Below are positions 11,352-54,220 of a stretch of DNA of 64,000 nt, piece by piece (within the stretch, counting starts at the first letter, position 1; the number at the start of each line of letters is the position of its first letter). Origin of the DNA: an uncultured Clostridia bacterium (GTDB lineage Bacteria; Bacillota; Clostridia; Lachnospirales; CAG-274); the NCBI GenBank assembly GCA_947630725.1, contig CANRIS010000009.1:23519-87518 (forward strand). Direction: 5' to 3'. Below the pieces are notes generated by a model. The model ran no database searches, was not told the DNA's origin, and saw only the letters and a list, made by a program, of their open reading frames with translations. The position numbers were made by a program, and so were the translations under genes.

Positions 11352-11516
11352 AATTGTCCTTTCTTTTGTCTAAAGCATTCAACAATAAATAATATCTAAG
11401 TATATTATATATCAAATTTATCTCTATTGCAACCGAAAAATAAAGCTTAGGGGACTACCGGTGCTGCTCCTACCCTCGATCATCCGCCTGCGGCGAACCT
11501 CTCTCGGGACGGAGCC

Positions 11517-11628
11517 GTAGGGGACGGGGCGGCGGATTTTGCCGAAGGCAAAATCCTGCCCCTGCCGCCGAAGGCGGCAGGGGCGCTCTGAAAATGCCGA
11601 AGGCATTTTCAGAGCGCCGCCCCGTCCC
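11517..11628. repeat. Structured GC-rich palindromic element: four-way-junction cloverleaf with three C(GAA)G-capped arms, preceded by GTAG
   Basis: Closing stem 11521-11534/11615-11628 (14 bp perfect); arm 1 11535-11555 (9 bp); arm 2 11558-11584 (12 bp); arm 3 11586-11614 (13 bp). All arms have the core gcc-gaa-ggc. Confidence 0.9.
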
Positions 11629-11761
11629 TTTTCGGCCACCCGGCAGCGTTTCGGTATACCTACAAACGGCAGGGAAAGTTCTTCGGCTGGAGGGAAAGTA
11701 CCCTGCAATTTTAAAATCCTCAGCAAAACAGTGTGTCGGCAGGATATTTTGTATACAAAAA

Positions 11762-11796
11762 ACGGAGTACAGGGAAACTGTAACCCTATACTCCGT
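11762..11796 (-). terminator. Rho-independent terminator downstream of tuf
   Basis: acggagta...tactccgt plus inner aggg/ccct; A-run on plus = T-run following the stem on the minus strand. Confidence 0.8.
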
Positions 11797-11897: not shown

Positions 11898-13091
11898 TTA
11901 CTCATAGATGTTAACAACAGCGCCTGAACCAACTGTTCTGCCGCCCTCACGGATAGCGAAACGAAGACCCTTTTCCATAGCGATGGGCTGAATAAGCTCA
12001 ACTTCCATTTCTACGTTGTCGCCGGGCATACACATTTCTACACCCTCGGGAAGAGTGATAACGCCTGTAACGTCAGTTGTTCTGAAATAGAACTGAGGAC
12101 GATAGTTTGAGAAGAAGGGCTTATGACGTCCGCCTTCATCAGCAGTCAGAACGTAAACCTGTCCTACAAAATGTGTATGAGGTGTGATTGTACCGGGCTT
12201 AGCAAGAACCTGACCTCTCTCGATCTCTGTTCTCTGAACACCACGAAGAAGTGCGCCGATGTTGTCGCCTGCCTGAGCATAGTCAAGCATCTTACGGAAC
12301 ATCTCGATACCTGTTACAACAACCTTACGAGCTTCTTCCTTGATACCAACGATTTCAACTTCCTCAGAAACCTTAAGCTGACCTCTCTCAACTCTACCTG
12401 TAGCAACCGTACCACGGCCTGTGATTGAGAATACGTCCTCAACAGGCATAAGGAAAGGCTTGTCGGCGTCTCTCTCGGGAGTAGGTATCTCATTGTCAAC
12501 AACTTCCATAAGCTCAAGGATGCCGTCTGCCCACTTGCTTGTAGAATCGGGATCTTCAAGAGCCTGGAAAGCGGAACCTCTTACGATAGGTGAATCCTCG
12601 AAGCCGTATTCTTCAAGGAGTTCTGTGATCTCCATCTCAACAAGGTCAAGGAGTTCCTCATCGTCAACCATATCGCACTTGTTCATAAATACGATGATTT
12701 TGGGAACGCCAACCTGACGAGCAAGAAGGATATGCTCTCTTGTCTGAGCCATGGGGCCGTCTGTTGCAGCAACAACAAGGATAGCGCCGTCCATCTGAGC
12801 TGCACCTGTGATCATGTTCTTTACATAGTCGGCATGGCCGGGGCAGTCAACGTGTGCATAGTGTCTGTTGGGAGTTTCATACTCAACGTGTGTTGTGTTG
12901 ATAGTGATTCCTCTTGCCTTTTCTTCAGGAGCCTTATCGATCTTGTCGAATGCAACAGCCTCACCAAGATGATATCTGTTCTGAAGAGTCTTTGTGATAG
13001 CAGCTGTAAGGGTTGTCTTGCCGTGGTCAACGTGACCGATTGTACCGATATTTACATGCGGTTTTGTTCTTTCAAATTTAGCTTTTCCCAT
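11898..13091 (-). CDS. tuf: Elongation factor Tu
   Basis: '[18 protein letters not shown]', '[26 protein letters not shown]'. Confidence 0.99.
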
Positions 13092-44590: not shown

Positions 44591-45038
44591 AAGCTAAAAA
44601 TAAAATTTTGCTCTAAACTGTCAAAAAAGTATATTTACTTATAATAAGAAAAATATTCGACAAATATATTATATATAGCGTCGCAGACTTTAATCCGCAG
44701 GTAGTGTCCGAAAGATGTCGGATTGCCCGAAGGGCAACTTTTCCGTAAGGAAAAGCACTGAGCAATGAGCTTTGCCCGTCCTCAGCACGTTTGCCTACGG
44801 CAAACGCCGCCTTTCGCTCACGCTCAGGCGTTCGGATTTTCTTCCGATGCCAGAGGAATAAATTTCAATTTGCGAAAAAACGCAGTTTTTGGAATAAATT
44901 GAAATTTATATTCCTTTATCCAAATGAAGTCGCTTACCTTGCCCGGCACGCACATTTGGCCTCATCAAAATGCGGCTGCATTTTGATGACAGCGTGTCGA
45001 TTTTTCGACACGCTGAAGCCAAAAATAAAATTTTGCTC
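44591..45038. repeat. Mosaic hairpin-array repeat copy R1, bracketed by 23-bp direct repeats
   Basis: aagcYaaaaataaaattttgctc at 44591-44613 and 45016-45038 (22/23 identical). Internal hairpins gcccgaagggc, cttttccgtaaggaaaag, gtttgcctacggcaaac, aaatttcaattt...aaattgaaattt, catcaaaatgc..gcattttgatg, agcgtgtcg..cgacacgct. 44854-45014 is near-identical to 54061-54220. Confidence 0.85.
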
Positions 45039-53924: not shown

Positions 53925-54220
53925 TCCGAAAGATGTCGGATTGCCCGAAGTCCAACTTTTCCGCAAGGAAAAGCACCGAGCATGAGCCTTGCCTGTCCGA
54001 AGAATAAATACCTGAGAAGCGTCGCAGACTTTAATCCGCAGGGTGAGCTTTGCCCACCCGAGGAATAAATTTCAATTTGCGAAAAAACGCAGTTTTTGGA
54101 ACAAATTGAAATTTATATTCCTTTATCCAAATGAAGTCGCCGGCTTGCCCGGCACGCACATTTGGCCTCATCAAAATGCGGCTGCATTTTGATGAAAGCG
54201 TGTCGATTTTTCGACACGCT
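53925..54220. repeat. Mosaic hairpin-array repeat copy R2
   Basis: 54061-54220 near-identical to 44854-45014. tagtgtccgaaagatgtcggattgcccgaag and agcgtcgcagactttaatccgcagg modules are shared with R1 but in the opposite order. Confidence 0.85.

Follow-up and report, generated by a model that had tools for sequence, protein, structure and literature searches.

On the evidence of its sequence, the cloverleaf at positions 11521-11628 of the window (the whole 64,000-nucleotide stretch of DNA that was analysed) belongs to a family, not described before, of about 40 small non-coding DNA elements in a single Clostridia-like species. A typical unit is about 170 bp long and contains a separate hairpin (P0), a linker, a closing stem with three arms (A, B and C) and a tail. 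We consider it probable that the window copy is an old member of a family of short, mobile, non-coding DNA elements specific to this species, in which arms have been rewritten and loops inverted by template switching at replication.

The window cloverleaf is perfect and three-armed, and its folding lies beyond chance. The DNA fold energy is -68.4 kcal/mol, compared with -34.7 +/- 3.2 for shuffled sequences (z -10.6), the RNA fold energy is -116.7 (z -12.4), and 0 of 200 shuffles folded as well. A structural scan identified it as the sole three-armed cloverleaf in the window and found none in five Markov-shuffled windows. The original prediction, made from the letters of the DNA, had its coordinates and sequence right, as well as the GTAG at 11517-11520 and the 14-bp perfect closing stem. 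It had also described the element as GC-richer than its surroundings, which agrees with a G+C content of 0.67-0.68 against about 0.28-0.53. The three arms are present, whilst their exact lengths, given as 9, 12 and 13 bp, depend on 1-2 shared junction bases that can be assigned to arm or stem. The GAA loop described for every arm holds for this copy and not for the family, where TGC/GCA, AAA/TTT and GTA are found elsewhere. The parts of the window copy and its immediate context are as follows.

11404-11432, - strand: promoter-like site of ispF, TTGCAA-17-TATAAT, conserved in congeners; context, outside the element.
11466-11520, + strand: degenerate P0-like hairpin (GCTCC...GGAGC) and linker CGTAG, left of the stem and facing it; compare GCTCACGCCTTTG...CAAAGGCGGAGCCGTAAG in other copies.
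11521-11534, + strand: closing stem, 5' strand, GGGACGGGGCGGCG; perfect 14-nt inverted repeat with 11615-11628 in the MFE fold.
11534-11556, + strand: arm GGATTTTGCC-GAA-GGCAAAATCC, core 11534-11543/11547-11556; read on the - strand it is the family arm C.
11558-11584, + strand: arm B, GCCCCTGCCGCC-GAA-GGCGGCAGGGGC, core 11558-11569/11573-11584.
11585-11615, + strand: arm GCTCTGAAAATGCC-GAA-GGCATTTTCAGAGC, core 11585-11598/11602-11615; read on the - strand it is the family arm A.
11615-11628, + strand: closing stem, 3' strand, CGCCGCCCCGTCCC; inverted repeat with 11521-11534 in the fold.
11629-11676, - strand: second degenerate P0-like hairpin and linker (GGCCGAAAAGGG on the - strand), right of the stem and facing it, an imperfect palindrome; compare GGAGCCGAAAAGGGGGCGGGGCGGCG of copy C2:49029.

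Read in the direction set by the right-hand P0-like hairpin, the window copy has its arms in the order A-B-C. Its longer closing stem and its arm C, GGATTTTGCC, place it in a subfamily that also includes C2:49029 and C18:1895. Since it carries a degenerate P0-like hairpin on both flanks, it looks old. Its neighbours are tuf (11898-13091, - strand) on one side and the ispF-cysS genes on the other (NCBIfam names), and it lies just upstream of the ispF promoter-like site. Low G+C and the order of the genes are suggestive of a Clostridia-like Firmicute. A terminator scan detected no intrinsic terminator or T-run at the cloverleaf. Downstream of tuf, an imperfect hairpin (ACGGAGTACAGGG/CCCTATACTCCGT, 11762-11796) is followed by a T-run on the - strand; it is probably the tuf terminator, though it is absent from the terminator-scan list.

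A first DNA search of the genome returned many partial matches, and folding these yielded cloverleafs with differing arm sequences. A covariance model built from ten aligned copies, the search proposed with the original prediction, located 36 distinct places in the 2.9-Mb assembly. DNA search and inspection added about six copies, on contig C18 and at C8:19681, C1:48689, C1:122508, C7:65656 and C3:44547 (the last five diverged or incomplete), giving a total of 37-42, a count that rests on searches and sampled stretches of the genome. The sequence family was not found in 47 other genomes of the taxonomic family at E ≤ 0.001. A weak match in one congener (G008) was rejected as a member, being a different long-hairpin element. 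Scanning wider genome contigs gave GC-rich matches only, mostly in unrelated taxa, and the one Clostridia match inspected was coding DNA; viral contigs and plasmids contained no convincing copies. An Rfam search returned no family above the curated score for the cloverleaf, and we found no earlier description of it in the literature searched. The description of the cloverleaf as REP/BIME-like, of an unrecognised type, stands insofar as the element is dispersed and absent from the libraries searched. A lone copy with no covarying homologues, the outcome named as counting against that description, is not what we found: copies number 37-42, with covariation at 30 of 44 pairs.

In one orientation, the usual copy begins with GCTCRCRCCTTTG..hairpin..CAAAGGCGGAGC (P0), a CGYAAG linker and GGGGCGGC, and continues with arms A (often GCTCCGAGCCGA..), B (often GCCCCTGCCGCC..) and C (often GTACTTTTGTCC..), GCCGCCC and RWWWSTT. 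The closing stem, GGGCGGC/GCCGCCC, is nearly invariant, and matches to P0 adjoin cloverleafs, except for weak partial ones. Information content falls to background to the left of KKSY-GCTC and to the right of RWWWSTT, which marks the ends of the element. There are no terminal inverted repeats, since the left KKSYGCTCAC and the right RWWWSTT do not form such a pair. The metG copy had hinted at an outer inverted repeat, but the whole set of copies gave no signal for one, and the idea was rejected. There was no target-site duplication: direct repeats at the ends were not enriched over mismatched copies. Some diverged members carry a further hairpin in the loop of arm C (C8:19681, L069; C1:48689, L068; C1:122508, L070; C3:44547, L107), as though arms lengthen or shorten from their tips.

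Over the unit, the copies L031 and L039 share 96.5% identity, yet their flanks are unrelated. The fhs-rimO spacer is 241 bp with the element here, compared with 9-22 bp in eight congeners (genes named by inspection of the proteins). The element in the metG leader lies between the promoter and the ribosome-binding site; two congeners, G008 and G005, share this promoter and this site, with a leader that is 251 bp shorter. Taken together, the unrelated flanks and the empty sites show, at the level of genome comparison, that spacers between genes, spacers within operons and leaders have received insertions of the element, which is dispersed as a whole unit. As the insertions (241-251 bp) exceed the unit of about 170 bp, some flanking bases are unaccounted for and the exact ends are unproven. 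Copies also cluster, with 9 pairs within 5 kb versus 2.3 expected, and these resemble each other more closely than random pairs do (0 of 5000 permutations). This suggests that nearby copies stem from local copying or duplication.

Sharp ends and empty sites would also be produced by a non-autonomous element mobilised in trans by a known transposase class, either as a miniature inverted-repeat element (MITE) or as an IS200/IS605 derivative. IS200-type transposases are present in the genome, and asymmetric ends, subterminal hairpins and the lack of target duplication would fit them. We found four Y1_Tnp matches, all IS200-type and none flanked by cloverleafs, where the original prediction had called for a RAYT gene; one intact protein that we tested matches the NCBIfam IS200/IS605 equivalog. 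We nevertheless regard trans mobilisation of this kind as rather unlikely, because there is neither a terminal inverted repeat nor an enriched target duplication, because the hairpins near the IS200 genes (CCACCTGC..GCAGGTGG) look, by eye, unlike the element ends, and because we found no gene-carrying element with such ends. The insertion polymorphism with empty sites, at fhs-rimO and metG, is a likeness to MITEs; lacking inverted ends and target duplication, the element is, as judged from its copies, not a classical one.

Copies occur in all gene arrangements and in both orientations, with few in divergent spacers (3 of the 35 with both neighbours called). A structural scan of 200 kb each of G008 and G005 revealed many intergenic elements with two or three arms, the stems of which are perfect and reach 49 bp. 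These contain 58 stems of at least 20 bp, with 18 mismatches in 1998 pairs, their arms differ from copy to copy and show a purine strand bias, and a CCCGYGG linker is often present (L085-L104). Several G008 and G005 contigs begin or end within such a hairpin. Small samples of other congeners and genera contained no elements of such size. Upstream of ispF (window 11460-11680), the orthologous spacers of G008 and G005 hold different multi-hairpin elements (L129, L133), and upstream of ileS (L064, L104) a cloverleaf is found here and a different multi-hairpin element in G005. These orthologous spacers may reflect shared ancestry with rewritten arms, or repeated insertion.

Such recurrence upstream of ispF and, for G005, of ileS, at sites that match the cloverleafs here, could be taken to mean that the elements exist chiefly for a host function, as nucleoid or transcription boundary sites selected for cruciform extrusion. 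The intergenic location of the copies and their scarcity in divergent spacers point the same way. In contrast, insertions break the fhs-rimO operon spacer and the metG leader, with no sign of a shared position, and the family is absent from the 47 relatives, making a host function an unlikely main cause. We also considered whether palindromes persist because SbcCD has been lost. SbcD was not convincingly detected in this genome (G000; best match 37 bits versus a cut-off of 77.65) or in G001, G002, G004 and G007, and it is present in G003, G005, G006 and G008. As G005 and G008 have SbcD yet carry the longest palindromes, this explanation was rejected.

We measured covariation on a MAFFT alignment of 31 copies, with the structure not used in fitting. 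Changes on both sides were found in 30 of 44 pairs, bearing out the original prediction that the arms are conserved in structure rather than in sequence and answering its call for a check of compensatory change. Cells with both sides changed numbered 147, versus 34.6 in shuffles and 13-33 in slid controls, and the covariation score was 0.320, versus 0.115 and 0.05-0.10, respectively. Being nearly invariant, the closing stem contributes little to this signal. When copies were folded singly, G·T accounted for 5 of 1654 pairs, and the arms contained 8 mismatches. Taken as a pattern, the arms diverge among copies yet remain Watson-Crick perfect, changing by multi-base compensation without G·T intermediates.

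An RNA structure under selection is expected to pass through G·U pairs. The pairing could in principle be maintained by selection on a structured RNA, such as a regulatory leader, a small RNA or a terminator, and the high RNA stability (z -12.4), the covarying pairs and the copy in the metG leader are compatible with this. The near-absence of G·T pairs (5 of 1654), the inversion of loops described below, the lack of an Rfam match and of a T-run, and the presence of copies in every gene arrangement and both orientations make it improbable. Of the two possibilities in the original prediction, the stable non-coding RNA is not supported, on the first three of these counts, which favour a structure formed by DNA. 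Since template switching of DNA also yields strong covariation, such a signal does not by itself prove a structured RNA.

Triloops are GNA or its complement TNC in 88 of 112 cases, against a random expectation of 12.5%, and in 12 of 51 other hairpins of the same genome; loops of arm A are often AAA. GNA triloops form extraordinarily stable DNA mini-hairpins (Yoshizawa 1997, as cited in PMC11101458). The original remark on stable C(GAA)G hairpins extends to the whole family, via GNA on one strand or the other. Nine stem classes contain both a loop and its exact reverse complement (TGC/GCA, GAA/TTC, AAA/TTT, TTTA/TAAA, CACG/CGTG), whilst no stem class contains a plain reverse or plain complement pair. 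Of the 19 loop pairs in which every one of the three bases differs, 7 are reverse complements, versus about 0.7 expected if unrelated, the pairs not being independent. Two copies 2.6 kb apart and 96% identical (L027 and L032) have TGC and GCA loops, respectively, in both arm B and arm C, and the tandem pair L034/L035 shows a flip of the P0 loop, CACG versus CGTG.

Homogenisation of arms and inversion of spacers by intra- and intermolecular template switching have been described, with a yeast spacer inversion from ATGCCttcGGCAT to ATGCCgaaGGCAT as an example (PMC8604942), and template switching creates and maintains perfect stems (PMC8794818). Perfect arms with inverted loops match this published signature, from which we infer the mechanism. 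Arms of single-stranded DNA would fold at replication forks, helped by the GNA triloops; the nascent strand would then switch template between arms, within a strand or between sister strands, rewriting one arm from the other and sometimes inverting the loop. Selection for pairing could also keep the arms perfect, but alone it leaves the reverse-complement loops unexplained. Across the one genome of the species, perfection of arms by paired change and inversion of loops form a pattern, which would constitute unusually clear evidence of DNA-level self-perfection in a small dispersed palindromic element. Spreading may use the same single-stranded, fork-linked route, as suggested by the closest relatives being nearby copies, or an enzyme acting in trans; this is the step we propose least firmly, and a search of the genome for a mobilising enzyme found none.

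Arms also appear to be exchanged as modules. In two chimeras, 2 of the 36 covariance-model places, arms B and C are fused with hairpins from a second repeat family (C30:8976-9137, L052, C30:9041; C6:55503-55663, L057, C6:55566). This second family is about 100 bp long with several perfect hairpins, has at least 40 genome copies at 88-100% identity and is far more uniform than the cloverleaf family. It occurs in the window at 44920-45030 and about 54125-54220 (CGCCGGCTTGCCCGGC... TCATCAAAATGC..GCATTTTGATGA, AGCGTGTCGA..TCGACACGCT). Tentatively, the elements could represent a new class of bacterial mobile element that needs no transposase of its own and whose single strand, folded into several hairpins, would be copied, made perfect, inverted, recombined one arm at a time and inserted again through template switching at replication forks, with independent versions within the genus, including the 40-49 bp perfect arms in two sister species. 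About 40 copies with changing yet perfect arms and flipped loops offer a natural record of hairpin rewriting during replication.

That the family is a REP/BIME mobilised by a RAYT (a Y1 HUH enzyme) recognising GTAG and a palindrome is highly improbable: the copies are intergenic, dispersed, palindromic and free of target duplication, and GTAG adjoins the stem in the window, but this position, the end of a non-conserved linker, reads mostly GTAA or GCAA and also GTAT, GCAT or GAAA in other copies, which leaves the proposed GTAG/RAYT link unsupported, and the Y1_Tnp genes are IS200-like with short hairpins of their own.

REP/BIME sequences are dispersed intergenic bacterial palindromes with compensatory changes (PMC2817692), features shared by the cloverleaf family; having no conserved GT(A/G)G head or RAYT, and four arms over about 170 bp instead of one palindrome of about 20-40 nt, the cloverleaf element is not a member of the REP/RAYT group. 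Mini-hairpins of the d(GCGAAGC) class resemble most family loops, which are GNA on one strand and closed by C-G; they describe a chemical property of loops rather than a genetic family, and arm A often has AAA. In quasipalindrome correction and spacer inversion, arms are likewise made perfect and loops inverted, there in single-copy inverted repeats and here, apparently, in the arms of a dispersed family. The hairpin elements of organelles (Allomyces DHE, sponge RHE, placozoan SIRs, yeast GC clusters) are short, GC-rich, intergenic and scattered among related species, divergent in sequence with structure kept, and thought to be mobile by a route not yet established (PMC2800124, PMC7813641, PMC4478555). 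The cloverleaf family shares with DHE and RHE its GC-rich intergenic hairpins, variable sequence and patchy distribution among related species, and a hairpin type of placozoan SIRs also has the form GGVBCC-(N)3-GGVBCC. It differs from DHE and RHE in residing in a bacterial chromosome (2.9-Mb assembly) rather than a mitochondrial or plastid genome, in its fixed unit of one hairpin and a three-armed junction, and in the documented inversion of loops between copies. By analogy, the cloverleaf element would work most like these organelle elements, with a more complex unit and on a bacterial chromosome. The family also bears on the question raised by organelle genomes of how hairpin elements spread without recognisable enzymes.
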